DNA from: Caldilineales bacterium
GTDB lineage: Bacteria; Chloroflexota; Anaerolineae; J102
DNA: 37,895 bases
Direction of reading: 5' to 3'
Assembly (NCBI GenBank): GCA_019695115.1
Contig: JAIBAP010000057.1
Location: 1 to 37,895 of the forward strand
A program made the translations under genes and the position numbers. The notes under the pieces were generated by a model. That model had not been told where the DNA came from and did no database searches. It saw only the letters and a program-made list of their open reading frames with translations. Below are positions 2,257-20,460 of the stretch, in pieces (position 1 is the stretch's first letter; the number at the start of each line of letters is the position of its first letter).

Positions 2257-3883
2257 CAAAGAATGGGTTGCCGTCGGTCTGGTCCGCACCTCCACCATCA
2301 TGCAGGTGGAAACGGGCCTGAGCATGATCACCCAGCCTGAACGCATCCGCGAGTTTGCGGCCCGTAATGGCCTCACGCTCAGCCACCTGTATGAAGAACC
2401 GGGCATCTCCGGTCGCAAGGCTCAGCGTAACACCGTCGATCGCATCTTGCGCGATGCGCGCGCTGGCAGATTCAATCTGCTCGTCGTCACCGACGTCTCC
2501 CGCTTCTTTCGCAATCTGGAGGCGCTCATCTCCGCCATCAAGACCCTGAAGGCCTCGGGCGTCGACTTCCTGTCCATTGACGACGGCATCGACACCCGGC
2601 GCCAGGACAGCTGGGGCAACGAACTGGTCATGGTCATCCTCGGCATGCTGGCCGAGCTTTACGCAGTGCAGCTGGCCCACAACACGCGCGAGGGCAAATA
2701 TCGTCGTTTCAAGCTGGGGCTATGGAACGGCTCGATCCCCTTCGGCTACTGCAATGGCCTCTGCTCCAACTGCACCCACCCCAATGGCTCCGACTACTGC
2801 CCCAACTTCGGCCGGCCCGACCTCGGCAACGGCGCCGACCTGATCCTCCACCCCATCGAATCGGACGGCGTGCGTCTCGCCTTCGAGACCTACGCCACCG
2901 GCGACTTCTCCGATTACGACACCGCCGAAATGCTCGCCCAGCATGAAGTGGCGGTGGCTGACGGATCGGTGCGGCGCCTGCGAGTGCCTTGCAAGCGACC
3001 CCCCAAGGAGGAAATTCCCCTGCCCGCACAGAGCCCGAGACCGCCGCATGGCTACCGGCCGCCCTACAAGGACTTCGTACGATATCTGTTGCAACGCCCC
3101 TTCTACGCCGGCTCTGTCACCTATACTCACGAACCGGGACCAAAGCAGCCGCACACCCCGATTTGGGTGGAAGAGAATACCGGCACCCATCCTGCCATTA
3201 TCTCTCGTGAACTGTTCGAGCAGGTGCAGCGCCTGCGCAGCAGCATCGGCACCAATTCCCGCCGTCAGGGCGAATCCCGGCGCATCTACCCGCTGAGCGG
3301 TCTGCTGCGTTGCGGGCGCTGCGGCGGCCCGATGCGAGGCACAAGCGCCAACGGCGGTGTCCGCTACTACCAGTGCTCACAACGCGCCGAACGCCATCGT
3401 CTGACCAACGGCCAGGAATGCGAGCAGCCCCTGGTGCAGGCTGACTCTGTCGAGGATGAGGTTGTCGCCCTTTTGCAGCGTCTGGCCGTGCCTGCACATC
3501 TGCGACCTGATATCCTGGCCCATTGTTTCTACCAGGATGATGTGGAGGTCATCGACTACCGCCGGCGCAAACTGATCAACTCCATGCAGCGCTACACCCA
3601 GCTGTATGAAGTCGGAACCATCGCCTGGGAGGAGTTCCAGACCAGACTGACCGGCCTGCGCAAGGCCATCGCCGAACTCACGCCCGATCAGCAGGCAAGT
3701 GCGCCGCAGGCGGAGTCGCTCCTAGGCAGCATAGCGACATTGTGGGCAGCGGCCACCGACGTGGAGCGGAGGTTATTGAGTTTGCTGGTCTTTCGCTACC
3801 TGGTCGTGAAAGATCAGGGGCTGACCGGCTATGCCTTTCGTCGCTTCATCGCACCGGCAAGAACAGAGGAAGAGCTCCGATGA
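2237..3883 (+). CDS. Large serine recombinase 1 (unusual active site)
   Basis: A 548-aa site-specific recombinase. It has a resolvase-type catalytic domain (about 10-165), a recombinase domain (about 165-340), a zinc ribbon with C359, C362, C380 and C395, and a C-terminal helical/coiled region. The nucleophile is S19 in LVRTST. The family motif YxRxS has Leu15 in place of Tyr. The aspartate of the usual DRxxR motif is replaced by Ser88 (SRFFRN), while R89 and R92 remain. Between catalytic and recombinase domains there is an extra cysteine cluster, C172-x3-C176-x2-C179-x8-C188, likely metal binding. ATG 2237 or 2243 could be the start. Large serine recombinases normally integrate, excise or invert DNA. 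The tandem neighbour at 4076 has the canonical active site, so the pair may act together, as CcrA/CcrB do. Confidence 0.93.
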   Translation: MPMHPPDKEWVAVGLVRTSTIMQVETGLSMITQPERIREFAARNGLTLSHLYEEPGISGRKAQRNTVDRILRDARAGRFNLLVVTDVSRFFRNLEALISAIKTLKASGVDFLSIDDGIDTRRQDSWGNELVMVILGMLAELYAVQLAHNTREGKYRRFKLGLWNGSIPFGYCNGLCSNCTHPNGSDYCPNFGRPDLGNGADLILHPIESDGVRLAFETYATGDFSDYDTAEMLAQHEVAVADGSVRRLRVPCKRPPKEEIPLPAQSPRPPHGYRPPYKDFVRYLLQRPFYAGSVTYTHEPGPKQPHTPIWVEENTGTHPAIISRELFEQVQRLRSSIGTNSRRQGESRRIYPLSGLLRCGRCGGPMRGTSANGGVRYYQCSQRAERHRLTNGQECEQPLVQADSVEDEVVALLQRLAVPAHLRPDILAHCFYQDDVEVIDYRRRKLINSMQRYTQLYEVGTIAWEEFQTRLTGLRKAIAELTPDQQASAPQAESLLGSIATLWAAATDVERRLLSLLVFRYLVVKDQGLTGYAFRRFIAPARTEEELR

Positions 3884-3940
3884 AACCGTTTCTTTTCCCG
3901 CTCTTAGACTCCATCTATACCTTTTCCCATATATCAGAAT

Positions 3941-3960
3941 TACTGACCAATTGGTCAGTA
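3941..3960. promoter_or_regulatory. Perfect 20-bp operator-like palindrome
   Basis: TACTGACCAATTGGTCAGTA is exactly self-complementary. A degenerate copy (TGTCCAAATGGTCA) follows near 3976-3989, and the right half TTGGTCAGTA recurs at 4014-4023 inside the spacer of the next promoter. TGACCA-n-TGGTCA dyads are typical of TetR-type and related repressor sites. The three copies in 83 bp suggest cooperative repression of recombinase 2. They could alternatively be recombinase accessory sites. Confidence 0.65.
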
Positions 3961-4006
3961 TCTGCGCAGCTTTGCTGTCCAAATGGTCAATTATGATGCA
4001 TATTTC

Positions 4007-4035
4007 TTGACAGTTGGTCAGTATTGCATTAGCAT
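4007..4035 (+). promoter_or_regulatory. Promoter of recombinase 2 with operator half-site in the spacer
   Basis: -35 TTGACA (4007-4012), 17-nt spacer, -10 TAGCAT (4030-4035). The spacer contains TTGGTCAGTA, the same half-site as the palindrome at 3941, so a bound protein would block RNA polymerase. The predicted start near 4042 gives a short leader of about 34 nt without a Shine-Dalgarno before ATG 4076. Confidence 0.65.
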
Positions 4036-4075
4036 TTCAGTATTCTTTTTCGATCCCACTATTCCTTGCCATTTC

Positions 4076-5656
4076 ATGCGCGCTGCTGCCTACATCCGTG
4101 TCTCCACGCCCGGCCAGGTCGAAGAGGGCCACTCCCTCGAAGCCCAGACCCAGGACATCTATGCCTTCGCCAATGTGAAAGGGTGGGACATCATTGCTAC
4201 CTATGCCGACGAAGGCATCTCCGGCAGCCTGGCTGACCGCCCTGGCCTGGTTCGGTTGCTGCGGGACGCCGAGGCGGGTCTGTTTGAGGTAGTGATTGTG
4301 CACAAGGTCGACCGCTTCTTTCGCGACTTGGCTGGTTTCCTTAGTGCGCTTAGCCGGCTCAACGAAGCCAACGTCAGCTTTCTTTCGGTGCGCGAGAACA
4401 TCGACTTCACCTCGCCCTGGGGTAAGCTGGCCCTCGTCATCCTTGCCACCATCGCCGAGATTTTCCTTGATATGCTACGCGATGAGACGATGAAGGGCAA
4501 GAAACAGCGCGTACGCAAGGGGATGTGGAACGGATCCATCCCCAACGGCTATTGCCTGGGGAACTGCTCGAGCTGTAACGACTACAACGGGCCCGGCTAC
4601 TGCCCCAATGTGGGACGCGAGAACATCGGCGACGGCCGCAACCTGGCGCCTCACCCACTCGACAGCATCGCCGTGCGCAAGATGTTCGAATGGTATGTGC
4701 ACGGTGACCACTCTGACGCTGATATCGCCGAACGCATCAACAGCTACGAGCACGTTCTGCCGGATGGCACGGTCGTGCACTTTCGCTCACGCGGGCGCGG
4801 CCAGGGCAGTGGGTTCCCACCAGGCCCCTACGGCAAAGACACGATCCGCAGCATGCTTCAGCACGTCGTCTACACAGGCGTCATCACCTACAAGGGCGAT
4901 GTGCTGCCAGGCAATCACCCGGCCATCATCGACGAAGAGTCGTTTGCACAGGCGCAACGCGTGCGCCGACTGCGAGGCACCAACCCACAGAGCCAGAATA
5001 CGACGAGCAAGGCAATGGCGCGCGCATTTCTACTTACCGGCATCCTACGCTGTGGGCAATGCGGCAGCCAGATGCGGGGCCAGACCGGCGCCAAGAAGGT
5101 GCGGTTTTATCAGTGCGTAAACCGCTTGCAGAAGAAGCAGCCGTGCCGACAGCCAATGGTGAAGGCTGAGCCACTGGAGCAGGCGCTGGTGCAGCTCGTG
5201 CAGAGCGTGCGTATTCCCGAAGAGGGCCGGGAACAGGTCCTGGCCAAGGCATTTCCCCATTGCGATGTCGCTGCGATCGAGATGCAGGAGGCCGAGTTGC
5301 GGGCACGCTACGAGCGCGTGGTCGAACTCTACCTGGCCGGCAAGATCAAGCGCACCAAGTTTGATGAAGAGGAGTTGGCCTATCGACGCGATGCTGTGCG
5401 TTTGACCAGTGGCCAGAGCGGAGCTATCCTGGAAGCCGTTCGGCTGGTCACCCGATTCCCCACCCTGTGGGAGACCTCAACCGTTCTAGAACAAAAAGCA
5501 CTACTGCAAACCATACTTTCCACCGTTCACATACGGGGCGAAAAAATCGAGGGCGTTCAGCCACAACCTGGCTTTTACGCCCTCTTCGAGTATTGGAGCT
5601 ACGGGAGCGACGGGGATCGAACCCGCGATCTTCGGCTTGACAGGCCGACGTGTTAA
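4076..5656 (+). CDS. Large serine recombinase 2, C-terminus encoded within tRNA-Asp
   Basis: A 526-aa recombinase starting [11 protein letters not shown]; the ATG at 4076 lies just behind the predicted promoter, and the in-frame upstream extension would cross it. The catalytic motifs are canonical: Y6, R8, S10, and D79-R80-x2-R83. The inserted cysteine cluster C160-x3-C164-x2-C167-x8-C176 has the same spacing as in recombinase 1. The zinc ribbon uses C326, C329, C347 and C357, followed by a helical C-terminal region. The last 17 residues ([17 protein letters not shown]) come from the complement of the tRNA-Asp gene at 5602-5674. This suggests the element is joined to the tRNA gene there. The protein is likely the active integrase/excisionase of the element, perhaps with recombinase 1. 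Operator-like repeats upstream point to tight repression. Confidence 0.93.
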
Positions 5657-5674
5657 CCGCTACACTACGCCCCC
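5602..5674 (-). tRNA. tRNA-Asp (anticodon GTC)
   Basis: Read on the minus strand from 5674: acceptor GGGGGCG pairs with CGCTCCC (one G-U). The D arm is GTGT/ACAC, and the anticodon stem TCGGC/GCCGA encloses CTGTCAA with anticodon GTC at 5641-5639. The T arm is GCGGG/CCCGT with loop TTCGATC, and the discriminator is G, as expected for Asp. CCA is not encoded. The length is 73 nt. Its 3' half overlaps the end of the recombinase 2 reading frame on the other strand. Confidence 0.95.
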
Positions 5675-5730: not shown

Positions 5731-5811
5731 ATCAGAAAGGCAGCCGCAGAAGCAAACCGCCGCCAGCGCCCTCCTCCCGCTGCCCACCCCTCGCGCCCAC
5801 CCCTCCCCCCT

Positions 5812-5915
5812 CCCTCCGTCCCTCCGTCTCCCCCTCCCTCCGTCTCCCCCTCCCTCCGTCCCTCCGTCTCCCCGTCCCTCCGTCTCCCCCTCCCTCCGTC
5901 CCTCCGTCTCCCCCT
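5812..5915. repeat. Octanucleotide array, 13 units
   Basis: Thirteen uninterrupted 8-bp units, mostly CCCTCCGT alternating with CTCCCCCT and one CTCCCCGT. It fills most of the 338-bp stretch between the tRNA and lepA (5675-6012), which otherwise holds only the two promoters. The same 8-bp family occurs in frame at 10711-10750 (opposite orientation) and 21711-21750. Confidence 0.9.
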
Positions 5916-5925
5916 CCCCCCCGCC

Positions 5926-6012: not shown

Positions 6013-7815
6013 ATGCGCACCAGCCATATCCGCAACTTCTGCATCATCGCCCATATCGACCACGGCAAATCGACCCTGGCCGACCGCCTCATCCAGGTCA
6101 CGCACACCCTCAGCGACCGCGAGATGCAGGACCAGGTGCTCGACAGCATGGATCTGGAGCGCGAAAAAGGCGTCACCATCAAAGCCTCGGCCGTGCGCAT
6201 GCAGTACGAAGCCCGAGATGGCCAGACCTACGAACTCAACCTCATCGACACCCCCGGTCATGTCGATTTCGGCTACGAAGTCTCGCGGGCGCTGAAAGCC
6301 TGCGAGGGGGCGGTGCTGGTGGTGGATGCCTCCCAGGGCATCGAAGCCCAGACCCTGGCCAACCTCTACCAGGCCATCGACCAGGGCCTGGAGATCATCC
6401 CTGTCATCAACAAGATCGACCTCCCCGCCGCCCGACCGGACGAAGTGGCGCACGACCTCGAAGACCTGATCGGCATCGACGGGCTTGACATCCCTCGCAT
6501 CTCGGCCAAAGACGGCGTCAACGTCGAAGCCGTGCTGGAGGCAGTCGTCAAGCAGGTTCCCCCGCCGGTGGGCGACCCCGAAGCGCCGTTGCAGGCCCTC
6601 ATCTTCGACAGCCACTACGATTCCTACAAGGGCGTCGTCGCCTATGTACGGGTCATGAACGGCCGCATCCGGCGCCGCGAACTGCTGCGGCTGATGTCGA
6701 CCGAGGCCAGCACCGAGCCGCTCGAGATCGGCGTCTTCACGCCGCTGATGCGCCCGGTGGAGGAACTGGAGGCGGGCGAGGTGGGCTATGTGGCCTCTGG
6801 CCTCAAGACCATCCGCGAATGCCGGGTGGGCGACACCTTCACCCTGGCCGCCAACCCCGCCGCCGAAGCCCTCCCCGGCTTCCGGCCGCTCAAACCGATG
6901 GTCTTTGCCGGCGTCTATCCCTCGGAAGGCGACGACTACAATCTGCTGCGCGACGCCCTGGAGAAACTGCAACTCAACGACGCCTCGCTCAGTTACCAGC
7001 CCGAGACCTCGCAGGCGCTGGGTTTTGGTTTCCGCTGCGGCTTCCTCGGTCTTTTCCACATGGAGATCATCCAGGAACGGCTGGAGCGCGAGTACGACCT
7101 CGACCTGGTGTTCACCGCACCCTCGGTGGAGTATCAGATTACCCTGACCGATGAGCGAGAAATCGTCATCGACAGCCCGGCCGAGATGCCCGACCCCAAC
7201 TACATCGCCGAGATCCGGGAGCCGTGGGTCGAGATCAACGTCATCACGCCCACCGAGTTCATCGGCGTGATCATGGACCTGGTGACGAAACGCCGCGGCG
7301 AATTCAAAAACCAGGAATATCTCGATCAGCGTCGCGTCCAACTCAGCTACACCATCCCCCTGACCGAGATCCTGGTCGATTTCTACAACGAACTCAAGGC
7401 CCGCACCCGCGGCTATGCCTCGCTCGATTACCATTTCCGTGAATATCGGCCGGCCGAGATGGTCAAGCTCGACCTCCTGGTAGCCGGGCAAGCGGTGGAC
7501 GCCCTCTCGGTCATCGTCCACGCCGACCAGACCTACACCAAAGGCCAGCGTCTGGTTTCCAAGATGAAGGACGTCATACCGCGGCAGCAGTTCGATGTCG
7601 CCATCCAGGCGGCGGTCGGCAAGCGCGTGATCTCCCGCGCCAATGTCAAGGCGATGCGGAAGGACGTGCTGGCCAAATGCTACGGCGGCGACATCACCCG
7701 CAAACGCAAGCTGCTGGAAAAGCAGAAAAAAGGCAAAAAGCGCATGAAGATGGTCGGTTCCGTCGAAATCCCGCAAGAGGCGTTTATGTCTGTTCTGCGG
7801 CTTGAAGAAGAATAA
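6013..7815 (+). CDS. lepA: Elongation factor 4 (LepA), ribosome back-translocating GTPase
   Basis: A 600-aa translational GTPase, the normal LepA length when started at 6013 ([20 protein letters not shown]). The G1 motif AHIDHGKST lies at 13-21, the switch region follows with [11 protein letters not shown], then DTPGHVDF and NKID. The C-terminal LepA-specific domain is present, including the run [17 protein letters not shown] near the end. LepA binds stalled or mis-translocated ribosomes and catalyses back-translocation at the cost of GTP. The longer frame starting at 5650 would read through the tRNA gene and the octamer array and is rejected. The gene is a housekeeping landmark that probably marks host chromosome to the right of the mobile region. 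Confidence 0.98.
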
Positions 7816-7817
7816 TG

Positions 7818-7858
7818 GAGATTGGTTATTGGTTATTGGCCAATAACCAATAACTAAT
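7818..7858. repeat. Head-to-head heptamer arrays forming a long palindrome
   Basis: Heptads of the GTTATTG type run into CCAATAA heptads of the opposite orientation. GTTATTGGTTATTGG (7825-7839) is perfectly complementary to CCAATAACCAATAAC (7840-7854), and weaker pairing extends to 7821-7858. It sits right behind the lepA stop and could fold into a hairpin with almost no loop. No T tract follows, so termination is only possible, not shown. Confidence 0.85.
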
Positions 7859-7884
7859 TACCACTACCCCACCTCACTCCCTCC

Positions 7885-10800
7885 ATGTCCCCTCGCACCC
7901 GCCGCTGGCTCGTCGTTCTGATCCTGGCTTTCGTCCTGCTGGTGGCCTTTGTCCTGCGCACGTTCAACGTCGATTGGGCCGAAGGCCAGCTGCCGCACCC
8001 TGACGAACGTTCGACCGTGGCTTTTTACGCGCCCAGCATCCGTTGGCCGGCGGAACCGGGGACATTTTTCGACCCGCGACGTTCCACCCTCAACCCACTT
8101 TGGGACCTCGGCAGCAACAGCCGCCGTTCCTACACCTACGGCCATTTCCCGCTCTATTTGCTCGTCATCTCCGGGCATCTGGCGCAGAAGCTGGTTCCGG
8201 TAGCCGAGGCCATCGGCGTGCCGCAAGCGTATGTCGATATGATGCGCATCGCCGTTGGCTCGCCCGGCTATGCCTGGGTGGGGCGACTGCTGATGGCCAT
8301 CGCCGACACGATCACCCTGCTGTATCTGTTCCTGATCGGCTGGCGGGTCTATAACAAGCATGTGGGGCTGCTAGCGGCGGCGTTGGGCGCGTTCACCGTC
8401 CTGCAAATCCAACTGGCGCACTTTTTCGCCGTCGATCCCATCTCCACCACCTTCACCGTGGCCGCCATCTATCACGCCATCCGCATGGTGGAAAGCCGCG
8501 GGTGGAGGCAAACAGTGTTGGCGGGGATCATGGCCGGGCTGGCCATTGCCTGCAAGTTCAGCGCCCTGCCCATCCTGGCGGCGCCGGGCGTGGCGGGGTT
8601 GATCATTTGGTGGAGCGAGAACAGAGGGCGGAGGGCAGAGGACGGCGAGTCTGCCCAGGGAGAAGCGAAGGGCCAAAGCTCGTGGACCGGGATTGGGTTG
8701 GCGGCGGCGGCGATCGGCGTGGCTGTGGTCGCATTCGTGGTCACATCGCCGTTTGTGATTCTGGATTGGGAGAACTTCTATCTGGCGGTGATCAAAGAGC
8801 AGGGGGCGATGGTGCGCGGCATCGCCGATTTCCCCTTCACCCGCCAATACCGCGGCACCACACCCTATCTCTATTTCATCGCCCAACAAGTGCGGTGGGG
8901 GATGGGCTGGTTCCTGGGGCTGGTGGGGTGGGTGGCCTTTGGTTGGGCCATCGTCAAGACGCTGATGTTGCGGGCCAGGCCGGGCGAGTTGATCATCCTC
9001 TCCTGGCTCGTCCCCTATTTCCTCATCACCGGCAGCTTCCTGGCCAAGTTCAACCGCTACATGGTTCCCGTCGTGCCGCTGCTGGCGGTGCTGGGGGCGG
9101 GGATGTTGTGGGCGCTGGCAGGATGGGTCGCAGGTCGCAAGTGGCAGGTGGCAAAGCTTGTCCCTTCGCTCCCCTCAGGGCCGGCTCTGAGTGAAACGAA
9201 GGATCGCAAGTCGCAGGTGGCAGAGCTTGTCCCTTCGCTCGCCTCAGGGCAGGCCCTGGGGGCAATGGAGGATGGCGAGGCGCAGACGGCGGACGCCACC
9301 CCGCACCACGGAACACGGAACACGGAACACGGAACACGCATCTTCTGGCTCTTCGGCCTCATCGTCCTCATCCCCACCCTGCTGTGGGCGCTGGCTTTCG
9401 TCAATGGCGTCTACAATCGCCAGCACACTTTCATCACGGCCTCGAAATGGATGTACGAGAATGTGCCCGACGGCAGTGTGTGGATCACCGAGCATTGGGA
9501 GGAGGGGATGCCGCTGGTGCTGCCCATCCCGCGCGGGAATCCGGGCGAGCACGGCTGGAGCAATGTGATGATGCCGATGTATGAGGAGGATACGCCGGAA
9601 AAGTATCAGATCCTCAAGCAGAACATGATCGAGGGCGATTACTACGTCCTGGCTACCAAGCGGCTGTACGGCGCCCTGCCCCGGCTGCCCGAACGCTACC
9701 CGATGAGCATCAAGTTCTACGATCTGCTGTTCTCCGGGCAGTTGGGCTACGAATTGGCCGCCGAGTTCACTGCTTATCCTTCTTTGTTCGGCCTCGAAAT
9801 CCCAGATCAGTCTGCCGACGAGAGTTTCTGGGTCTACGACCACCCGCGCGTCCTCATCTACAAGAAGGTGCGCGAGCTCAGCGACGCCGAGTGGGATCAG
9901 CTCTTGGGCGGGTCGTGGGTGGGCGCCCGCTATGGCTATACCGGCCAGGAGCCAGAGAACAGAGAACAGAGGGCGGAGACCGGCGAGGGCGAAACGGGGC
10001 CTGACCTCCTGCTCGATCAGCCCGTCAACGAGCTGCCCGACGTGGGCCGGGTGGCCTGGAATCCGTTCCGTTACAACAGTTGGCTGAGCCTGGTCTTTTG
10101 GTGGTTGCTGCTGTTCGGTCTGCAAGCCCTGGCCTGGCCCATCGCCTTCACCCTTTTTGGCCGCCTGGCCGACCGGGGCTATGGCTTCAGCCGGGCGCTG
10201 GCGATGATCCTGGTGGGCTGGCTGGCCTGGATTCTGCCCGCCCTCCACCTCCTCAAGAACAATCTCTTGCCCTCGTTGCTGGCCGTGCTGGTGGTGTTGG
10301 CCCTTTCGTTTGGCCTGTGGCGACGGAACCGGGAGGCGATGCGCGCCTTTTGGCAGGAGCGGCGGCGGCTGATTTTGGTCAGCGAGGCCGTCTTCACGGC
10401 TGCATTCCTGCTATTCGTCTTCATTCGCCTGCTCAATCCCGACCTCTGGCAGCCCTGGCAGGGCGGCGAGAAGTTCATGGAGTTTGCCTTTCTCAACGCC
10501 GTCACCCGCACGCCGTTCTTCCCCTCCTACGACCCCTATTTCGCCGGCGGCTATCTCAACTACTACTACTACGGCTATCAGATCCTGTCCGTTTTGATCA
10601 AACTGACCGGGATCAGCTCGTCCATCGCCTTCAACCTGGCCATCCCCACCCTCTTTGCCCTGACGGCGGCGGGGGTGTTCAGCCTGGTCTATACGTTGGT
10701 GGCGGGAGGGGGGAGACGCGGAGACGCAGGGACGGAGGGACGCAGAGAGGGGCGCGGGGTGTGGGCGGGGGTGGCGGGGGTGTTTTTTGTCGCCCTGATG

Positions 10801-12636
10801 GGCAATCTGGAGGGCGGGCTGATCGTTTTTCGGCAGCTGGCCGAGCGCGGGGGCAGCGCCTTCAGCTCGAATCTCCCGCTGCTACAGCCGCTCGTGCAGA
10901 CAGCAGCAGGCGTGGGTGCGGCGGTGGCGGGGCGGGTGCAATGGCCGGGCTACAACTTCTGGTCGCCCTCGCGGGTGCTGCCTTTCACCATCAACGAGTT
11001 CCCGTTCTGGTCGTTCCTCTTTGCCGATCTGCACCCGCACATGATCGGCATCCCCTTCACCGTCCTCTTCCTGGCCCTGGCCTACACCCTCATCGCCGGG
11101 TATCGCCGCCCTGGGCAGACGGCCCTTGCCGCCGGCGGCTTCCTGCCTTTCGTGTTGCTGCTAGCAATGATGCCGCTGACAGTGGGCGCCATCGGCGCCA
11201 TCAACACCTGGGATTTGCCCACCTATCTGGGCGTGGGGGTGTTGGCCTGGGGCATCCGCGAATGGAAGGGCCAGGGCAAAATCCGCATCGTCCCCACCCT
11301 GCTCTTTGTGGTTGGGCTGGCCGCAGCCGCCCTTGTGCTTTATCTGCCTTTCTATCGCAACTACACCACCGTCTTCGAGACCGGCGTCGGTCTGACCTAC
11401 ATCAAGACGCAGATGGGGCCGTGGCTGCGGATTTGGGGCTTCTTCCTCTTCGTCGCCCTCACCTACATCCTGGTGGAACTGCGCCGGCGGCCCGGCGATG
11501 TGCCCGTCCTGCGCTGGCTGGCCGGATTGCTGCGCCACTTCGACCGCGCCCCGCGCTATCTCGACCATGTTTCGGCTCTGGCTCGGCCCAAATGGACGCT
11601 GCCTTTCGGCCAGACGGCTTTGGGGATCAGTATCCTGCTGGGGATCGCCCTGGCTTTCCTCGGTTATGCGGTGGTGGGCCTGCTCCTGCCGCTGGTGGTG
11701 ATCACCGCCCTCTACCTGTTCCGCCGCACCACTTCCGCCCCCGGCCAGTTCCGGGCGCTGCTGTTCTTCACCGGGCTGCTGGTGGCGCTCGGCGTCGAAA
11801 TCTTCTACCTGAAGGATTTCCTCTGTGGGTGCGGCAGCGGTGGGCTTCTCAGCCGCGAGCACGGCGACTACTACCGCATGAACACCCTGTTCAAGTTCTA
11901 CATCCAGGTGTGGGTCTTGTTGGGGATCGGCGCCGCCGCCGTTTTGCCCGATCTGCTCGACGCCATCCGCTCGTGGCCGCGCCGCTGGCGGGGCCTCTGG
12001 CTGGCCGGATTGGGCATCCTGCTGGCCCTGGGCCTGGTCTTCCCCGTCCTGGGCACAGCCGACCGCGTGAACGACCGCTTCCCGCCGCCCGTCCCCGCCC
12101 GCAACACGCTCGATGGCATGGCCTTCATGACTGTCGGCCGCTACGGCTGGCCCGATGGCAACACCATGATCGACCTGAAGTATGACCACGAGGCCATCCG
12201 CTGGCTGAAAGAAAACGTCACCGGCACGCCCGTGCTGGCCGAAGCGCCCGCCTCGTGGTATCCGGTCAACGGCCAAAACGCCGGCTATGACTACTACCGG
12301 GCGGGCGGGTTGCGCGCCAGCTCGCTCACCGGGCTGCCCACGTTCCTCGGCCAGCACCAGGGCGAGCAGCGTTTCGGCTCGCAGACCGGCCCGCGCGAGG
12401 CCCTGGGCCGCGAGTTCTTCGAGACCACCGACATCGCCCGGCTGCGGCAGATCATCGACGACCTGGGCGTGAACTACATCTACATCGGCCAACTCGAACG
12501 CATCCTGTTCAACGCCGACCAGCTGCGCAAATTCGATGCCCTGGTCGATCTGGGCGAGGCCGAAGTCGTCTTCCAAAACGACGGCGTGACGATCTATCGA
12601 ACGGTCAACAGTCAACAATCAACAGTCAACAACTAA
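7885..12636 (+). CDS. Giant fusion: GT39-like glycosyltransferase plus DUF2298 (YYY) membrane domain
   Basis: A 1583-aa polytopic protein. Residues 1 to about 530 resemble a GT-C (PMT/ArnT-type) glycosyltransferase: a first membrane helix at about 9-26, then an extracytoplasmic loop with the catalytic-type D40-E41 (LPHPDERS), then many helices. From about 715 to 1560 it is a DUF2298 domain with the hallmark tyrosine run NYYYYGYQ near residue 890. Such enzymes normally transfer sugars from polyprenyl-phosphate donors on the outer face of the membrane; the acceptor is unknown. Hydrophilic loops contain in-frame repeat DNA at 8617, 9135, 9307, 9955 and 10711, and the C-terminus is a heptad array (12604). 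The smaller paralogue at 12681 lacks these. The start at 7885 has no Shine-Dalgarno. A single ORF supports a true fusion. Confidence 0.85.
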   Translation: MSPRTRRWLVVLILAFVLLVAFVLRTFNVDWAEGQLPHPDERSTVAFYAPSIRWPAEPGTFFDPRRSTLNPLWDLGSNSRRSYTYGHFPLYLLVISGHLAQKLVPVAEAIGVPQAYVDMMRIAVGSPGYAWVGRLLMAIADTITLLYLFLIGWRVYNKHVGLLAAALGAFTVLQIQLAHFFAVDPISTTFTVAAIYHAIRMVESRGWRQTVLAGIMAGLAIACKFSALPILAAPGVAGLIIWWSENRGRRAEDGESAQGEAKGQSSWTGIGLAAAAIGVAVVAFVVTSPFVILDWENFYLAVIKEQGAMVRGIADFPFTRQYRGTTPYLYFIAQQVRWGMGWFLGLVGWVAFGWAIVKTLMLRARPGELIILSWLVPYFLITGSFLAKFNRYMVPVVPLLAVLGAGMLWALAGWVAGRKWQVAKLVPSLPSGPALSETKDRKSQVAELVPSLASGQALGAMEDGEAQTADATPHHGTRNTEHGTRIFWLFGLIVLIPTLLWALAFVNGVYNRQHTFITASKWMYENVPDGSVWITEHWEEGMPLVLPIPRGNPGEHGWSNVMMPMYEEDTPEKYQILKQNMIEGDYYVLATKRLYGALPRLPERYPMSIKFYDLLFSGQLGYELAAEFTAYPSLFGLEIPDQSADESFWVYDHPRVLIYKKVRELSDAEWDQLLGGSWVGARYGYTGQEPENREQRAETGEGETGPDLLLDQPVNELPDVGRVAWNPFRYNSWLSLVFWWLLLFGLQALAWPIAFTLFGRLADRGYGFSRALAMILVGWLAWILPALHLLKNNLLPSLLAVLVVLALSFGLWRRNREAMRAFWQERRRLILVSEAVFTAAFLLFVFIRLLNPDLWQPWQGGEKFMEFAFLNAVTRTPFFPSYDPYFAGGYLNYYYYGYQILSVLIKLTGISSSIAFNLAIPTLFALTAAGVFSLVYTLVAGGGRRGDAGTEGRREGRGVWAGVAGVFFVALMGNLEGGLIVFRQLAERGGSAFSSNLPLLQPLVQTAAGVGAAVAGRVQWPGYNFWSPSRVLPFTINEFPFWSFLFADLHPHMIGIPFTVLFLALAYTLIAGYRRPGQTALAAGGFLPFVLLLAMMPLTVGAIGAINTWDLPTYLGVGVLAWGIREWKGQGKIRIVPTLLFVVGLAAAALVLYLPFYRNYTTVFETGVGLTYIKTQMGPWLRIWGFFLFVALTYILVELRRRPGDVPVLRWLAGLLRHFDRAPRYLDHVSALARPKWTLPFGQTALGISILLGIALAFLGYAVVGLLLPLVVITALYLFRRTTSAPGQFRALLFFTGLLVALGVEIFYLKDFLCGCGSGGLLSREHGDYYRMNTLFKFYIQVWVLLGIGAAAVLPDLLDAIRSWPRRWRGLWLAGLGILLALGLVFPVLGTADRVNDRFPPPVPARNTLDGMAFMTVGRYGWPDGNTMIDLKYDHEAIRWLKENVTGTPVLAEAPASWYPVNGQNAGYDYYRAGGLRASSLTGLPTFLGQHQGEQRFGSQTGPREALGREFFETTDIARLRQIIDDLGVNYIYIGQLERILFNADQLRKFDALVDLGEAEVVFQNDGVTIYRTVNSQQSTVNN
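8617..8644. repeat. In-frame heptamer array, 4 units
   Basis: GAGAACA, GAGGGCG, GAGGGCA and GAGGACG in a row, 28 nt. It encodes a polar loop (ENRGRRAEDG) between two membrane helices of the 1583-aa protein. Confidence 0.75.
9135..9272. repeat. 69-bp tandem duplication in frame
   Basis: Two adjoining 69-bp copies (9135-9203, 9204-9272), each 23 codons, begin TCGCAAG and contain GCTTGTCCCTTCGCTC. They encode related loop segments (VAKLVPSLPSGPALSE and VAELVPSLASGQALGA). The second copy has drifted. The core resembles the dispersed motif at 21643-21666. Confidence 0.85.
9307..9338. repeat. In-frame heptamer array CACGGAA x4
   Basis: Four perfect CACGGAA units plus CACG. Since 7 is not a multiple of 3, the encoded peptide (HGTRNTEHGTR) cycles through three frames of the unit. 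It lies just before a membrane helix of the 1583-aa protein. Confidence 0.95.
9955..9982. repeat. In-frame heptamer array, 4 units
   Basis: GAGAACA twice, then GAGGGCG and GAGACCG, 28 nt. It encodes ENREQRAETG in the linker between the glycosyltransferase-like half and the DUF2298 half. It is the same family as 8617-8644. Confidence 0.8.
10711..10750. repeat. In-frame octamer array, 5 units
   Basis: GGGAGACG, CGGAGACG, CAGGGACG, GAGGGACG and CAGAGAGG: the reverse-complement form of the octamers at 5812-5915. It encodes the loop GRRGDAGTEGRREG between two membrane helices of the DUF2298 half. Confidence 0.8.
12604..12631. repeat. Heptamer array GTCAACA x4 at the stop codon
   Basis: GTCAACA, GTCAACA, ATCAACA, GTCAACA. 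It encodes the last residues (TVNSQQSTVNN) of the 1583-aa protein, so the natural C-terminus was probably replaced or extended by the array. Confidence 0.95.
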
Positions 12637-12648
12637 CGATCTGGATCG

Positions 12649-12676
12649 TCAATAACCAATAACCAATTACCAATCT
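12649..12676. repeat. Heptamer array CCAATAA-type, 4 units
   Basis: TCAATAA, CCAATAA, CCAATTA, CCAATCT, ending 4 nt before the ATG at 12681. It is the same family as 7840-7858. It occupies the place where a ribosome binding site would be, so the next gene has none. Confidence 0.9.
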
Positions 12677-12680
12677 CCCC

Positions 12681-15155
12681 ATGCTCGACTTCCTCCGCTT
12701 CTGGCTCATCCTGACTCTAATCGGTCTGGCCGGCCTGCCGCTTTCGTGGCGGCTGTTCGCCTTCCTGCCCGACCGCGGCTATACCTTCAGCCGCGCCCTC
12801 GGCTTGCTGGGGGCGGGCTATCTGCTCTGGCTGGGCGCCACCTTTGGGCTGCTGCGCAACACGGCCGGCGGGGCGGTGCTGGCGCTCTTGATCTTTGCGG
12901 CGCTGGGGCTGTGGCTGGGCCGGGCGGGCTGGCAGAAGGACAGCGAGGGCAAACGGCCGTTGCTAGAACACCTGCGGGCGCAGAAGGCCGCCATCCTCGT
13001 TGTCGAGCTTTTCTTCCTGCTGGCGATGGCGGCCTGGGCCTACTTCCGGGCCTACAACCCCGACATTGCTGGCACCGAAAAGCCGATGGAGTTCGCCTTT
13101 CTCAACGGCATTCTCAACTCGCCCCAGTTCCCCCCGCACGACCCCTGGCTGGCGGGCTATGGCATCAGCTACTACTACTTCGGTTATGTCCAGCTCAACA
13201 TGCTGGTGCAACTGACGGGCGTACAACCCAGCATCGCCTTCAATCTGGGGCTGGCAACCATCTTCGCGCTGACGCTGTTGGGCGGGTTTGGGTTGGTCTA
13301 CAACCTGGTGCGCGGCGACAGTGGCCGTCCGGCCAGCTTCGTGCGCGGCGTCGTCTTCGGCCTCCTCGCCAGCCTCTTCCTGGGGCTGATGGGCAACCTG
13401 GTGGGCGTGTTGGAGGCCCTGCAAGCGCGCGGGCTGCTCTCGTCGCGGCTGCATAGCCTGTTCGATGTCAAGGAACTGGCCAACGCCCCCGTCATCGGCG
13501 CCTGGAATCCCGGCAGCGGCTACTGGTGGTGGTGGCGAGCCTCGCGCGTCATCCACGACCGCGATTTCAGCGGCCGCATCGACCAGGAAGTGATCAGCGA
13601 ATTCCCCTTCTTCAGCTTCCTGCTGGGCGATATGCACCCGCACGTGCTGGCCCTGCCGTTCGTGCTCTTGGCCCTGGCCCTGGCCCTCAACCTGTTCCGC
13701 CGCGGCGTCACTGCCAGCGAGCAGGCGGAAGGCCGGGATTGGCGCACAGCCTGGGGGTCGGTCGTCGCCGTCTTCGGGCTGGATGGCTGGGGGCTGCCGC
13801 TCTACGGCCTGGCCTTAGGCGCGCTCGGCTTCCTCAACACCTGGGATTTCCCCATCTACGTCTTCCTCGTCACCCTGGTCTATGGCCTGCGCCGGGGCCT
13901 GGGCGGCGCCCGGCTCGACCGTCGCCTGTGGACCGAGATCGCTCTGACCTTCGTCGCCCTGGCCGCGATCGGTTTCGTTGGCTACCTGCCCTTCTACCTC
14001 AGCTTCAGTTCGCAGGCCAACGGCATCTGGCCCAACTTCTACAACCCCACCCGCCTTGCCCAATACCTGCTGATGTTCGGCCCCTTCCTGGCCGCCCTCA
14101 TCCTGCTTGTAGCCGTGGCCTGGCAGCGGTTGGATGCCCGCCGATCCGCCCTCTTGCGCTGGCTCCTGGCCATCTTGCTGCTCCCGCTCATCTTCCTCTT
14201 CCTGGCTACGCTTCTCGCCGCCCTCCTCCCCTCGCTTCGCGGCCAGATCGAATCGGCTCTCGGCCAGGCGGCGGGCCAACTCATCCCGCAGTTGGCCCGG
14301 ATTCGGGTCTCGGCGCCGGGGACATGGCTCTTCGTCGGCGGCCTGCTGGCCGCCATCGGCGCCCTGCTGGCCGGCGTCTTTGCCCTGCGTGGCGAGAGAA
14401 GGGACGACGAGAAAGAGGGCAATGCCACCATCATCTTCGTCCTCGCCCTCTTCTTCACCGCCCTGCTGCTCACCTACGGCGTCGAGTTCGTCTTCCTGCG
14501 CGACACCTTTGGCACGCGCATGAACACCGTCTTCAAGTTCTACTACCAGGCCTGGATCATGATGGCGGTGGGGTCAGCCTATGCCCTCTACTACCTCAGC
14601 ACACGGGCGGGGCGAGGGCTGCGCTGGGCTTCATGGGCGGTCATGGCCGTGCTGATAGCGGGCGGGATGATCTACCCACTCTTCGCCATCCCCAGCAAAG
14701 CCAACAACTTCCAGGGCGAGGCTTCGCTGGATGGCGCCCGCTATGTGGCCCAATACCGGCCCGACGAAGCGGCCGTGACCGCCTGGCTCAAGCAGAACGC
14801 CGCCCCTGATGCTGTCATCCTCGAAGCCTCCGGCGGCTCCTACTCTGACTTCAACTTCATCTCTGCCGACAGCGGCCGCCCGACCCTGTTGGGCTGGGGC
14901 GGCCACGAATTACAGTGGCGGGGCAACTACGACGAAGCCGGCCGCCGCGAGCCGTTGATCGAGACCATCTACCAGAACCGGGACGAAGAACGCATCCGCG
15001 CCATCGTGGCCGAGTTCGGCATCGATTACCTCATCGTCGGTCCGCGCGAAATGGATAAGTATAAGATCGCCCCCGACCGCCGTCTTGCCTTCGTCAACCT
15101 CTGGCAGCCGGTGTTCGAGCAGGGCGGCTATACCGTCTATGCCTGGCGTGGATGA
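12681..15155 (+). CDS. DUF2298 (YYY-type) membrane glycosyltransferase-like protein
   Basis: An 824-aa polytopic protein homologous to the second half of its upstream neighbour: the conserved run GISYYYFGYVQLNM (near residue 170), then PSIAFNLGLATIFALT, DMHPHVLALPF and GTRMNTVFKFYYQAW. The last 130 residues form a soluble extracytoplasmic part (DAVILEASGGSY ... YLIVGPREMDKYK). DUF2298 proteins are presumed GT-C-fold sugar transferases; substrate and product are unknown. It starts 45 nt behind the previous stop and is probably in the same transcript. No Shine-Dalgarno is seen; a heptamer array ends just before the start. Unlike the 1583-aa paralogue, its loops carry no repeat DNA, so it shows what the uninterrupted domain looks like. 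Confidence 0.85.
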   Translation: MLDFLRFWLILTLIGLAGLPLSWRLFAFLPDRGYTFSRALGLLGAGYLLWLGATFGLLRNTAGGAVLALLIFAALGLWLGRAGWQKDSEGKRPLLEHLRAQKAAILVVELFFLLAMAAWAYFRAYNPDIAGTEKPMEFAFLNGILNSPQFPPHDPWLAGYGISYYYFGYVQLNMLVQLTGVQPSIAFNLGLATIFALTLLGGFGLVYNLVRGDSGRPASFVRGVVFGLLASLFLGLMGNLVGVLEALQARGLLSSRLHSLFDVKELANAPVIGAWNPGSGYWWWWRASRVIHDRDFSGRIDQEVISEFPFFSFLLGDMHPHVLALPFVLLALALALNLFRRGVTASEQAEGRDWRTAWGSVVAVFGLDGWGLPLYGLALGALGFLNTWDFPIYVFLVTLVYGLRRGLGGARLDRRLWTEIALTFVALAAIGFVGYLPFYLSFSSQANGIWPNFYNPTRLAQYLLMFGPFLAALILLVAVAWQRLDARRSALLRWLLAILLLPLIFLFLATLLAALLPSLRGQIESALGQAAGQLIPQLARIRVSAPGTWLFVGGLLAAIGALLAGVFALRGERRDDEKEGNATIIFVLALFFTALLLTYGVEFVFLRDTFGTRMNTVFKFYYQAWIMMAVGSAYALYYLSTRAGRGLRWASWAVMAVLIAGGMIYPLFAIPSKANNFQGEASLDGARYVAQYRPDEAAVTAWLKQNAAPDAVILEASGGSYSDFNFISADSGRPTLLGWGGHELQWRGNYDEAGRREPLIETIYQNRDEERIRAIVAEFGIDYLIVGPREMDKYKIAPDRRLAFVNLWQPVFEQGGYTVYAWRG

Positions 15156-15197
15156 ACCGCCTCTTTACCGAATCGTAACCTTCCTGCAACAAATCGT

Positions 15198-15206
15198 TGC
15201 TAAACT
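15198..15206 (+). promoter_or_regulatory. Possible extended -10 element
   Basis: TGCTAAACT, a TGn extended -10, lies 40 nt before ATG 15246. No convincing -35 is visible. The TGCTAnnnT form is shared with the elements at 963-971 and 24316-24324, which is the main support. Confidence 0.35.
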
Positions 15207-15245
15207 CGTTTTGGCTCCATTCGGCATCTCACACCCCTGTTTCTG

Positions 15246-17033
15246 ATGGCACCAACCACCGCCATGTCGCCTGTGGCGACCCCTGCCAACGTCGTTCCAT
15301 CCGTCCCCGACTCGTTGCTCCGACGGCTCACCGTCGAGCACCTGCTCTACGGCCTGCTGACCCTGGCCGCCATCGTGGCGCGGCTGATCCACGTGGGCGC
15401 TTACCCTCTGGCCCCGGTCGAAGCGGCCGCCGCCCTGCGCGCCTGGCAGGCCAGCCAGGGCCTGGGAGCGGTGCTCGACGCCGGTTCACCGCTGCTTTTC
15501 AGCCTGCAAACCCTTACCTTCTTCCTGGCGGGCGCCACCGACGGGTTGGCCCGGCTGTGGCCGCTGCTGGCAAGCGCCTTCTTGCCGTGGGCGATCTACG
15601 GCTGGCGGGGGTGGGTGGGCCGTCCGGCGGCTGTGTTGGCGGCCGTGTTGGTCACAGTCTCGCCGCTGGTCAACGCCTTTGGCCGCCGCAGCGATGGCGC
15701 CGTCTTCGTTTTGTTCGGGCTGGCGCTGGCATTGGCAGGGTGGGCCTCTTTGCAAAAAGGCGAGGGCCGCGGCTGGGTGCTGGCGGCGGTCGGAACAGGC
15801 ATCCTCCTCATCGGCGGCCCGGCCGGCCCGGCGGCGCTGATCGCCCTGACCCTGGTCATTTTGTTTAGCCGAACCGATTTCTCCGCCCTGCCCCGCCCGT
15901 CGCTGATCCACCTGGTGGTGCTGTTGGCGGTCGCTTTCGTCGGCGGGACAGCCTTCCTCAGCCGCCTCGATGCCCTGGGATTGACCGCGGTCAACTGGAG
16001 CGAATGGCTGCAAGGCTTCACATTTTCCCTCAACGGCTGGCTGTGGGGCCTGGCCCGGCTGATCGCAGACGATCCACTGACCGTGACCGGTGGGCTGGCC
16101 GGGCTGGTCTTCTGCTGGCGGCGGTCGGCGGTCGTGCGCTCGTTCGGGTTGGCCGCCCTGGTCGTGGCGCTGCTTGCCACCCTGCAAGGCCCCCTTGCCG
16201 CTGGCACGCGCGCCGTCGCCGGCCTGCTGTTCGCCGTCCCTGCCGCCTTTGTCCTCCTCGCCCTCTTTCGTCAGGCCGCCCGGCTGTTGCGCGGCCAGGG
16301 CGACGTCAACCAGATCGAACTGCTCATCTTTGCCGCCGTCCTGCAAATCCTGGTCGTCCTCACCGCCCTTTCGCTGATCAACTACGCCCACGACGCCAAC
16401 CGGCTCTGGCTCATCCGCCTCGGCGTGGCGCTGGCCGCCATTGTCATCTTCGTCATCCTCTTCGCCTGGTTCATCGGCCAACGCCCAACCCTGGTCATCA
16501 CCGCTATGCTGGCGTCGTTCAACCTGGGCCTGCTGGCCCTGGCCACGACCTGGGGCATGGCCTTCGATGTGACTCCCCCGCGCTACGCCGCCCTCTATGC
16601 CGCCAACACCCGCCCCGGCATCTACACCCTGCTCGACACGATGGGTGACTTGAGCGAACGACGCCATAGCGGGCGCTGGGAAACGCCTATTGCCCTGGTC
16701 ACGGGCAGCGCTGGGCAGGATCAAGCCGTCCTCGACACCCTGCATTGGTATCTGCGCCCGGCCCGCGAGCTGCGGATTGTGAGCAGCATCAGCCTCGATG
16801 ACGCCCCACCGCTCGTCGTCGCCCCCATGAACGAGCCGCTTCCCCTCAGCGACCTTTACTCTGGCATGGAAACAGGCATCATCACCCACTGGCAACCCAC
16901 CGATGACGCCTCCGCCTCGAACCAACAACAACTGCGCTGGTTGATCTTCCGCACCGCCCCCTGGGACATCCCCACCCAGCCGTTCGTGCTGTGGACGGAT
17001 GTCGCCACGCTCACCCTCAGCGACACCCCCTGA
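15246..17033 (+). CDS. Polytopic GT-C-like membrane protein with altered catalytic motif
   Basis: A 595-aa protein with about ten to twelve membrane helices starting at residue 33. A first helix is followed by an extracytoplasmic loop, as in GT39-type enzymes. Where active relatives have an Asp-Glu pair (SHDE or similar), this protein reads APVEA: Glu59 is kept but the Asp is Val58. A 130-residue soluble C-terminal part follows the last helix. It lies between the DUF2298 gene and the Agl23-like gene and is probably made with them. It may be a catalytically weakened subunit or partner, or use another acid. Family assignment rests on topology and position only. Confidence 0.6.
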   Translation: MAPTTAMSPVATPANVVPSVPDSLLRRLTVEHLLYGLLTLAAIVARLIHVGAYPLAPVEAAAALRAWQASQGLGAVLDAGSPLLFSLQTLTFFLAGATDGLARLWPLLASAFLPWAIYGWRGWVGRPAAVLAAVLVTVSPLVNAFGRRSDGAVFVLFGLALALAGWASLQKGEGRGWVLAAVGTGILLIGGPAGPAALIALTLVILFSRTDFSALPRPSLIHLVVLLAVAFVGGTAFLSRLDALGLTAVNWSEWLQGFTFSLNGWLWGLARLIADDPLTVTGGLAGLVFCWRRSAVVRSFGLAALVVALLATLQGPLAAGTRAVAGLLFAVPAAFVLLALFRQAARLLRGQGDVNQIELLIFAAVLQILVVLTALSLINYAHDANRLWLIRLGVALAAIVIFVILFAWFIGQRPTLVITAMLASFNLGLLALATTWGMAFDVTPPRYAALYAANTRPGIYTLLDTMGDLSERRHSGRWETPIALVTGSAGQDQAVLDTLHWYLRPARELRIVSSISLDDAPPLVVAPMNEPLPLSDLYSGMETGIITHWQPTDDASASNQQQLRWLIFRTAPWDIPTQPFVLWTDVATLTLSDTP

Positions 17034-17070
17034 CCCTTCGCTTCCCCCTGGGCCAACCCCCCGCCCTCCC

Positions 17071-17147
17071 ATCTCCGATCTCCCATCTCCCATCTCTGAT
17101 CTCCCATCTCTGATCTCTGATCTCTGATCTCCGATCCCTGACCTCCG
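17071..17147. repeat. Heptamer array ATCTCYN, 11 units
   Basis: Eleven contiguous 7-bp units (ATCTCCG, ATCTCCC, ATCTCTG, ending ATCCCTG, ACCTCCG). It fills the 125-bp gap between 17033 and 17159 and ends 11 nt before the next ATG. The reverse complement of the same family is inside the coding region at 21601-21642 and 21832-21859. Confidence 0.95.
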
Positions 17148-17158
17148 CTCCCCACCCT

Positions 17159-20100
17159 ATGGCCGCCCCCAAGCAACCCACCCCCTCCGCCCCCTCTGCC
17201 CGCCGCGCCGGCTCCTGGCTCGACCGACCCGCGCTCGTGGCCTTGAACTGGGAGAAAATCGCCTGGATCGTCCTCATCCTGCTGGCGTTTGCTCTGCGTC
17301 TGTACAATGTCGGCGCCCGCACCATGAGCCATGACGAAAGCCTGCACACGCAGTACAGCTATCAGTTGTACAACGGCAGCGGCTACACGCACGACCCCTT
17401 GATGCACGGCCCCTTCCTGTTCGAGATCACCGCCCTGAGCTACTTCCTCTTTGGCGCCAGCGACGCCTCGGCCCGGCTGCCGGTGGTGCTCTTTGGCACG
17501 GGTATCGTGGCGCTGATGTGGTTCACCCGGCGTTGGCTAGGGCGGTTGGGTGCATGGCTGGCGGGCGTGTTGTTGGCCTTCTCGCCCGTGCTGCTGTACC
17601 ACAGCCGCTACATCCGCCACGACATCTATCTCATCTTCTTCATCGTCCTGACGGCGATCCTGGCCTTTCGCTATCTGGAAACGGGGAACAAGAACTGGCT
17701 GATCGGGTTGGCGGTGGCGTTGGGCTTGTCGTTCACCACCATGGAAGGCTCGTTCATCTACGCCATTGTCTTCGTCGGTTTCTTCCTGGTCTGGACGTTG
17801 GCCCGGCTCTTGGCGACGAAGTGGGAGAACCAGGGCTATCGCTGGCCCTTCTTGGGCTTACTGGCTCTGGCGGGCGTGCTGGCCACCTATCCACTCTTCG
17901 AGGCCATCAAATCGCCCGTTGGCTCGGCTGTGACCAGCGCCCGTCTGGGCGGGCTGGTGTTGTGGCCGATCTTCCTGGTTGGCGTAGCGGTTTTGGCTGT
18001 GGCTTTCTGGTTTCTGATCAAAGGCTACGGCCTGGCGCGACTGCGCGAGATGCGCGAGTTGGATGTCATGCTCTGGATTCTGACCCTGGCCGCGCCGCTG
18101 TACGCTGCTTTTCCGATCAAACTCTTCGGCGGCAACCCCGAATCGGTCAAAATCCTGCCCAACATGTTGCAGCCCGACGTGCTCAAGTCCGCTGCCATCT
18201 TCTTGGTCATGGTGGCGGCTTTCGGCGTCATTGGCCTGTTGTGGGATGGTCGGCGCTATGCCGCCGGGCTGGGGGTCTTCTATGGCGTCCTGATCGTCCT
18301 CTTCACTACCTTCTTCAACAACGGCAACGGCGTGGGCACCGGGCTGGTGGGGAGCATGGGCTACTGGTTGGCGCAGCAGGAAGTCAAGCGCGGCGGCCAG
18401 CCCTGGTACTACTACGGCCTGATCGTGCCGCTGTACGAATTCCTGCCCCTTCTCCTCTCCGGGCTGGGGGTGATCACCCTGGCCGGGCGCGGCCTGCGCC
18501 GGCGCTCGCTCGATCCCAGCAGCGATGACAGCCTGACATCCATCTCCGCCCCCTTGCCCATCCGCAGCCAGTGGCTCCTTTTCATCGCCTTCTGGTCGAT
18601 CAGCGTGTGGGTCATCTTCACCTGGGCCGGCGAGAAGATGCCCTGGCTTTCGACCCACTTCACCACCCCCATGTGCATCCTGGGCGGCTGGTATCTGGCC
18701 GAGCGCCTGAAGGTGGTGGACTGGCGGGGTGTGCGCGAGCGGCAAGGGCTGTGGCTGTTGCTCGGCCTACCGCTGTGGATCGTCGCGCTGGTCAAGCTGC
18801 TCCAACTCCGCCCCTTCCGCGGCTCCGACCTGGATAGCCTCAGCGACACCATGGGCTTCATTGCCGCCCTGGCGCTAGTGATTGGCCTGGGCTGGGTGTT
18901 GGCGCGCAAGGTGCTGGCGGTCGGCTGGCGCTCGACCGGCCGCCTGGCCTTCCTCAGCCTGGTCGCTTTGCTGGCCCTTCTCTCCTGGCGGACGGCCTTC
19001 TACTACAACTACGTCTACTACGACTACCCCGTCGAACCGGGCGTGTATGCACATGGCTCGCCGGATGTGAAGATCATCGTCAGCCAGTTGCAGGACATCT
19101 CGCGTAAGACCGTGGGCGAAAACCAATTGGCCTTTGCCTACGACAACGAGTCCACCTGGCCGTTCGAGTGGTATTTCCGCGACTTCCCCAACAAGAAGTT
19201 CTTCGGCGCCGCCCCCTCGCGCGACTATCTCCAGGACGCCCCCGTGGTGCTGATCGGAACCGAGAACGAGGGCAAAGTCAAGCCCTACCTGGGCAACAAC
19301 TACTATCGCATCCCCTACCGCCAGATCTGGTGGCCCAAAGAAACTTACAAGGACCTCACCTGGCAGCGGATTTGGGACGGTCTGCGCGACCCTCAGATCC
19401 GCAAGAACGTGCTGGATGTCATCCTCTACCGCCGCTACCAGCAACCCCTGGCCGACTGGGACCCCTCCGACCGCGTGCTGATGTTCGTGCGCAAGGACAT
19501 CGCCAACCAGGTGTGGGACCTGGGCGCAGCCCCAGCCATCGAACAGGTTGAGGTGGTCGATCCGTTCGAAGGTAAATACCGCCTGGAATCGGCCACGCAG
19601 ATCCTGGGCGGCGTCAGTGGCGAAGCGCCGGGCCAGCTCAAACAGCCGCGCGACGCCGCGGTGGGGCCGGAAGGGCGCATCTATGTGGCCGACACCGGCA
19701 ATCATCGCATTCAGGTCTTCAACCCCGATGGCAGTTTCGCCTTCGGTTGGGGCAGCTTTGGCGAAGGCGACGGCCAGTTCAACGAGCCGTGGGGCATCGC
19801 CGCCTCGGCCGACCGCATCTACGTGGTCGATACCTGGAATCACCGTCTTCAGGTCTTCACCCCCGATGGCCAGTTCCTGAGCAAATGGGGTGCGTTCGTC
19901 TCCACCGACGGCCAGCTGGGGCAGCAGGGCGTGTTCTGGGGGCCGCGCGCGGTTGCCATCGATGGCAACGGCAACCTCCTCGTCACCGACACCGGCAACA
20001 AGCGCGTCCAGGTCTTCGACCCCGAAGGCAACCCAATCACACAGTTCGGCGGCGCCGGCCTCGAACCCAGCTATCTGGATGAGCCGGTGGGGGTGGCCGT

Positions 20101-20455: not shown

Positions 20456-20460
20456 CCGGC

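Follow-up and report, generated by a model that had tools for sequence, protein, structure and literature searches.

Heptanucleotide arrays in and around a membrane glycosyltransferase gene of a Caldilineales bacterium: probable members of a genome-wide repeat population

Background

A gene for a large membrane glycosyltransferase in a Caldilineales bacterium carries tandem arrays of seven-nucleotide units both in its coding sequence and on its flanks, and this raises the question of whether such arrays switch the enzyme on and off, serve as spacers in its loops (a preliminary description of the locus had suggested both), or belong to something larger than the gene. The window, i.e., the whole stretch of DNA that was analysed (37,895 nucleotides of contig JAIBAP010000057.1, assembly GCA_019695115.1), is a contig of a 5.99-Mb genome, a draft of 135 contigs.

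Heptameric repeats of Cyanobacteria have long been known, and we know of no accepted origin or function for them. A search of the open-access literature retrieved no report on heptamers in Chloroflexi or Anaerolineae. Among the described systems, the GGGNATC / GGGGA(C/T)T repeats of Xanthomonas and Nostoc have a period of 7, are dispersed and mostly intergenic, and present their G strand ≤ 50 bp after stops and the antisense ≤ 50 bp before starts (Rehm et al. 2015, PMC4692102, where the heptameric STRRs of Calothrix and other filamentous cyanobacteria are cited too). TAACTGA direct repeats occur in Beggiatoaceae, cyanobacteria, and Bacteroidetes, with rare copies in ORFs near protein ends and with 7-nt indels between strains (MacGregor 2015, PMC4679880), and the tandem repeats of Borg elements evolve fast, have independent origins, and give rise to disordered stretches in proteins (Schoelmerich et al. 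2023, PMC9879509). We consider, with a probability of about 0.7, that the arrays at the present locus belong to a population of heptameric STRRs that is spread over the genome and has recently been active, and that inside the glycosyltransferase they are tolerated spacers, not a switch.

Results and discussion

Arrays of the window

Period-7 repeats are present at all six places from which the question started, also inside the gene (7885-12636, plus strand, as are the arrays given here from 7821 to 21918). The period had been described as exact, and this holds for 9307-9338 only (25/25 lag-7 matches), the arrays at 8617-8644 (15/21), 9955-9982 (16/21), 12604-12631 (19/21), and 12649-12676 (17/21) being imperfect. 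What had been read as one array at 7818-7858 is actually two short ones in opposite orientation (GATTGGTTATTGGTTATTGG / CCAATAACCAATAACTAATTACC): a G-strand arm (ATTGGTT)n at 7821-7839, directly after the lepA stop codon (7813-7815; TRF period 7, 100%), and a C-strand arm (CCAATAA)n at 7840-7863, upstream of the glycosyltransferase start and complementary to the former (TRF, RNA fold). Each arm is one half of a hairpin, and in a fold of 7813-7884 the inverted pair (about 7818-7863) gives an 18-bp RNA stem (-23.2 kcal/mol, z = -5.1). On the other flank, C-strand heptads (CCAATAA/CCAATTA, TRF) at 12649-12676 lie just before the ATG at 12681, between the glycosyltransferase and a second DUF2298 gene; the corresponding gap of relative G002 contains another word, CCATCGT (L022 6167-6208).

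Further arrays were found in the window, two of them in the same gene (9126-9153 and the octamer-type 10712-10748, see below). C-strand heptads (ATCTCCC/ATCTCTG, TRF score 106) occupy 17066-17147, upstream of a gene starting at 17159, and two G-then-C modules (the polarity of the second was checked) lie at 21592-21918 inside another glycosyltransferase gene (21184-24264; PMT_2/PA14 by Pfam). Another, at 5788-5918, is an octamer-based C-strand repeat CCCTCCGT with periods of 8/16/40, immediately ahead of where lepA probably starts.

A genome-wide population of heptads

Statistics were drawn from 0.8-1.2 Mb of stretches picked blind to repeats (an extra 0.4 Mb, partly picked by repeat match, was used only where stated), with gene calls from a simple home-made gene finder (87% coding). 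The expectation that 7-bp arrays would be common in this genome was borne out: 800 kb contained 165 of them (~200 per Mb, roughly a thousand genome-wide), as against 22 arrays of period 8 and two each of periods 9, 10, and 11, and a third-order Markov control of the first sample produced none. About 92% (152/165) are intergenic, at a density 76-fold that of coding DNA. The supposed preference for four units fails at this scale, as 3, 4, and 5 units are about equally common (29, 34, and 32 arrays in 1.2 Mb, followed by 19 of 6 units, 24 of 7, and a tail up to 43). The vocabulary is restricted, with 48 word classes vs about 150 expected from local 7-mers and 15 arrays in the top class vs 2.8, the main families being CACGNNN, CCAATNN, NACTGAN, GGCAGGT-like, and TCAACAN. 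With a period of 7 far above chance and above all other periods, and with the same words dispersed mostly between genes, this is a heptameric STRR population, of which the arrays in the window are ordinary members.

The likeness to STRRs noted in the preliminary description thus extends to period, intergenic excess, inverted pairs, and position rule, all as in PMC4692102. Like the GGGNATC repeats described there, those reported here have a period of 7, sit preferentially between codirectional genes, form inverted pairs, and obey a strand rule at stops and starts, and a word of that type (AATCCCC/GGGGATT) is also among them. They differ in that there are dozens of words, the commonest without GGG tracts, that four units are not clearly preferred, that several arrays lie in coding loops, and that words turn over inside one genus. 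The TAACTGA repeats (PMC4679880) share the period, the intergenic location, and the position directly upstream of starts, and the identical word class (AACTGAT) was seen once in our first sample; they consist of one word, whereas here there are many, together with G-strand arrays after stops and head-to-head modules. As for the Calothrix STRRs, as far as PMC4692102 cites them, the likeness (tandem heptamers, several words per genome, in another phylum) concerns period and words only.

Words are replaced while the period stays

Three consecutive copies of CACGNAA match 338 times in this genome, compared with 0-6 matches per genome in 300 others from the phylum. The reversed pattern, used as a control, matches 0 times in this genome and is itself a real word in another one (G330); the reversed control for CCAATAACC was disregarded, this word being identical when reversed. 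Two congeners have other leading words (AAGGACG; AACGTTC), with array densities of 138 and 60 per Mb, and 158 kb of one class member contained 0 heptads. Nine orthologous junctions were compared that have an array in one genome of the pair; the second genome had none at any of them (0/9), and several of these empty junctions are very short, measuring about 20 bp or less. As anticipated, words and arrays thus differ between relatives at orthologous junctions (and at orthologous loops, see below), and given the one-sided junctions and the different words of congeners, the arrays have the look of additions that are recent and specific to the lineage. Congeneric species have replaced most of the word set and kept the period of 7, and with it persists the polarity described below.

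The preferred reading, a recently active STRR population, would account for this pattern if a small species-specific set of 7-nt words were copied to new sites and the resulting arrays lengthened, probably by slippage and by recombination between copies (a birth mechanism that we infer). Arrays typically form a head-to-head module, in which the G-strand array comes first and the C-strand array second, often with different words in its arms; they are placed mainly between codirectional genes, making junctions longer that would otherwise be tight. One observation may count against this reading: arrays of the word CACGGAA recur in many unrelated phyla, and words may therefore not be arbitrary. 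One and the same 25-bp array, CACGGAACACGGAACACGGAACACG, was seen in Bacteroidota, Verrucomicrobiota, Gammaproteobacteria, Acidobacteria, Streptomyces, and others (L167-L246).

A strand rule for heptads

In 1.2 Mb, arrays within 60 bp of a start codon have the C-rich strand as sense in 103 cases and the G-rich in two, while within 60 bp of a stop the sense strand is G-rich in 64 and C-rich in 22, a strand preference relative to neighbouring ORF ends (Fisher p 5e-29) of the kind known from other heptameric STRRs. Solitary arrays behave likewise (C near starts 32:1, G near stops 15:6), as do octamer arrays genome-wide. Where neighbouring arrays lie on opposite strands, the G-strand array precedes the C-strand array in 98 pairs of this genome and follows it in two; the ratio is 26:3 in relatives and 10:1 inside genes (this genome and relatives together; two of these few cases are orthologs and hence not independent). 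Outside Chloroflexi, a small cross-phylum test of polarity gave p 0.03. C-rich leaders were considered as a source of the rule and rejected, as leaders without arrays have only a mild excess of C (0.34 C, 0.23 G), which does not suffice for 103:2. Shine-Dalgarno sequences showed no clear effect of adjacent arrays (22/77 with vs 54/160 without).

Quadruplexes are not the general cause of this polarity, as the CACG family, whose commonest words lack a GG run, obeys the rule. The two commonest words, written as G strands (TTCCGTG and GCGTGTT), have no GG run and do not offer a G-tract in each unit, and the clear four-unit preference of GGGNATC repeats is missing as well; a quadruplex explanation can hardly be general if words unable to form them follow the same strand rule. 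The TCAACA family has the opposite base polarity (10/10 by nearest gene end), suggesting that polarity belongs to the word itself and not merely to its G content; this, too, counts against the preferred explanation. Examples of TCAACA-sense arrays after stops and TTGATTG-sense arrays before starts are found at L060:3108-3165 and L163:9055-9387. What is new beyond the published rule is that polarity is independent of the word and also valid inside genes, besides the recurrence of arrays in one loop (see below).

A pure insertion model does not predict the polarity of solitary arrays, which hints at selection at the RNA level. It is possible, and we put it forward tentatively, that the arrays form an intercistronic mRNA unit, with a G/U-rich part behind the stop and an unstructured, C/A-rich part ahead of the next start, and that this unit serves as a hairpin spacer, a stabiliser, or a binding site for S1- or Csp-like proteins. 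The very strong position and strand rule, followed by solitary and octamer arrays alike, speaks for such a role, and so do the depletion of arrays between convergent genes (6/54 vs 112/424, p 0.012), the stable hairpin at 7813-7884, the better pairing of arms with their own partners than with swapped ones (-25.7 vs -20.5 kcal/mol), and similar proposals made for TAACTGA in PMC4679880. However, pairs inside genes are also polar (10:1) with no start or stop nearby, only 35% of pairs have a word common to both arms, and in the small set compared array positions are not common to congeners.

The modules inside genes and the mixed arms are what one would expect if the arrays had arisen by fold-back or were scars of break healing, with 3' ends extended by G/T-rich heptads through slippage on themselves or on another array and then joined, which would leave head-to-head G...C modules like fused telomeres. 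The G-then-C order, also within genes, the different words in the arms of 65% of pairs, and the location of modules in gaps that are tight in congeners fit this scenario, which we nevertheless consider unlikely. Neither this genome nor nine relatives contain a Ku gene, making classical bacterial end joining unlikely, and the correlation of solitary arrays with the nearest gene end and the opposite direction of the TCAACA family argue against it as well.

Very unlikely, in our estimation, is a broader version in which one process shared across bacteria adds words of 7 nt, in a fixed polarity, to DNA ends or gaps, as in telomere-like extension, such that the outward strand of each word would run away from its flank and head-to-head modules would result. 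Were it true, heptads in Cyanobacteria, in Xanthomonas, and in this lineage would all be products of one mechanism, with a fixed period and a drifting word.

Arrays inside the glycosyltransferase

The 1583-aa protein is a membrane glycosyltransferase of the GT-C type with PMT_2 and DUF2298 parts (Pfam PF10060, E 9.8e-116; PF13231, E 6.6e-13), a membership based on profile matches and a multi-helix membrane fold (Pfam, hydropathy, AlphaFold). Its gene lies between lepA upstream and the second DUF2298 gene downstream, a match was found in 26/26 good-quality genomes searched, and distant homologs occur in records from Anaerolineae, Chloroflexi, and Sphaerobacter. Neither codon shuffles nor local shuffles of the gene (300 each) yielded a single array of the kind of which four are observed.

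Loop A (aa 412-486) starts with G-strand heptads (GGTCGCA/GGTGGCA, 9126-9153, aa 414-423; TRF) and ends with the perfect C-strand array (CACGGAA)4.6 (9307-9338, aa 475-485); a 69-bp duplication (9135-9285; TRF period 69) carries the REP-like sequence CTTGTCCCTTCG...AACGAAGGATCG, embedded in GGCAGGT-type heptads. Degenerate G-strand heptads (GAGAACA/GAGGGCG, 8617-8644, aa 245-254) fall in a loop that is shorter in the aligned orthologs, and partly degenerate ones (CAGAGAA/GAGGGCG, about 9953-9982, aa 687-700; TRF, alignment, hydropathy) lie in the hydrophilic stretch that separates the enzyme's two membrane parts. The octamer-type G-strand array (GGAGACGC/GGACGGAG, 10712-10748, aa 943-955; TRF period 8) is in a loop between hydrophobic segments according to hydropathy. 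The last array (GTCAACA, about 12600-12632; TRF) indeed ends the protein, as had been claimed, and encodes an extra tail (TVNSQQSTVNN) that orthologs lack in an alignment of C-termini.

A location of the arrays in hydrophilic loops, also part of the initial claim, agrees with their position between hydrophobic segments or in the hydrophilic middle part and with loops of low pLDDT. In an AlphaFold model of residues 1-515 (mean pLDDT 75), pLDDT drops below 50 in segments that adjoin or contain arrays, i.e., the long loop 422-476 and 256-263, each between confident helices, and loop A is predicted to be disordered between helices 396-425 and 477-510. In 13 orthologs loop A harbors arrays of about a dozen different words, with heptad peptides such as NTQYPIS, SVFSVQY, and RSEVGGQ. 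Loop B (aa 1069-1086) has arrays in two lineages, a genus with a common word and another family with a different one. The same loop of one enzyme, filled apparently independently by many heptad-coded peptides, is a natural series that can be used for testing loop tolerance and repeat birth. Borg repeats (PMC9879509) resemble these arrays in their fast evolution, independent origin, and disordered protein stretches, but the units of their ORF repeats are divisible by three and mostly unique, whereas here 7-nt units come from a shared word set.

As 7 and 3 have no common factor, a pure heptad array encodes the same cyclic heptapeptide in all three frames; the frame is thus irrelevant to the array's own peptide and only the total array length matters downstream. 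In all 15 genomes with arrays in the glycosyltransferase (15/15), these are in one open frame with no internal stops. A unit length that is not a multiple of 3 and a membrane glycosyltransferase, plausibly for surface glycans, as host had led to the idea of a phase-variable contingency locus, in which gain or loss of units switches the enzyme on and off. We regard this as highly improbable: none of the 15 genomes has an off-frame ortholog at its arrays (upper 95% limit for the off state about 18%), and most arrays in the gene are short and imperfect, lowering slippage. In the small sample of intragenic arrays elsewhere, there is no enrichment of surface genes, the hosts including FtsA, TrpF, NuoG, a PTS enzyme I fusion, 2-oxoacid dehydrogenase E2, TatD, and proteases, several of them housekeeping genes, and in at least two of the hosts the arrays lie in domain linkers. 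One ortholog (G031, L050) has a glycosyltransferase ORF that is split near the position corresponding to aa 936-961, where there is no heptad array.

Under the preferred reading, an array would survive in coding DNA only if its word contains no stop and its overall length preserves the frame, and only where nearly any peptide is tolerated, as in disordered inter-helix loops, inter-domain linkers, and protein ends. It is this frame-keeping survival at tolerant sites that makes the arrays in the glycosyltransferase look like tolerated insertions or spacers and not like an on/off switch, and we infer that they are nearly neutral there. That all of this is an artefact of assembly or chance can be dismissed despite the draft state of the genome (135 contigs), as ordinary sequencing reads are longer than the arrays of the window, many independent assemblies of relatives contain arrays of this kind, and shuffles yield none.

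Other features of the window

A dispersed REP-like core (CTTGTCC...CGAAGGATCG) is usually located inside GGCAGGT-type heptads on a fixed strand, e.g., in the window at 9135-9285 and 21640-21680, and at L070:600-750 and other sites. About 19 such cores (CTTGTCC...CGAAGGA) were counted in 1.2 Mb with a pattern tied to the GGCAGGT word (a wider REP pattern matched two sites only); they are mostly beside GGCAGGT heptads, and most arrays have no core. The genome has three Y1_Tnp genes, and the IS200-like one in the window (32967-33374) is a candidate RAYT for these cores. An Rfam scan of the window returned nothing but one tRNA. A tRNA gene (5602-5674, minus strand) adjoins two tandem large serine recombinases (2237-5656; Resolvase, Recombinase, Zn_ribbon) that possibly mark an integrated element.
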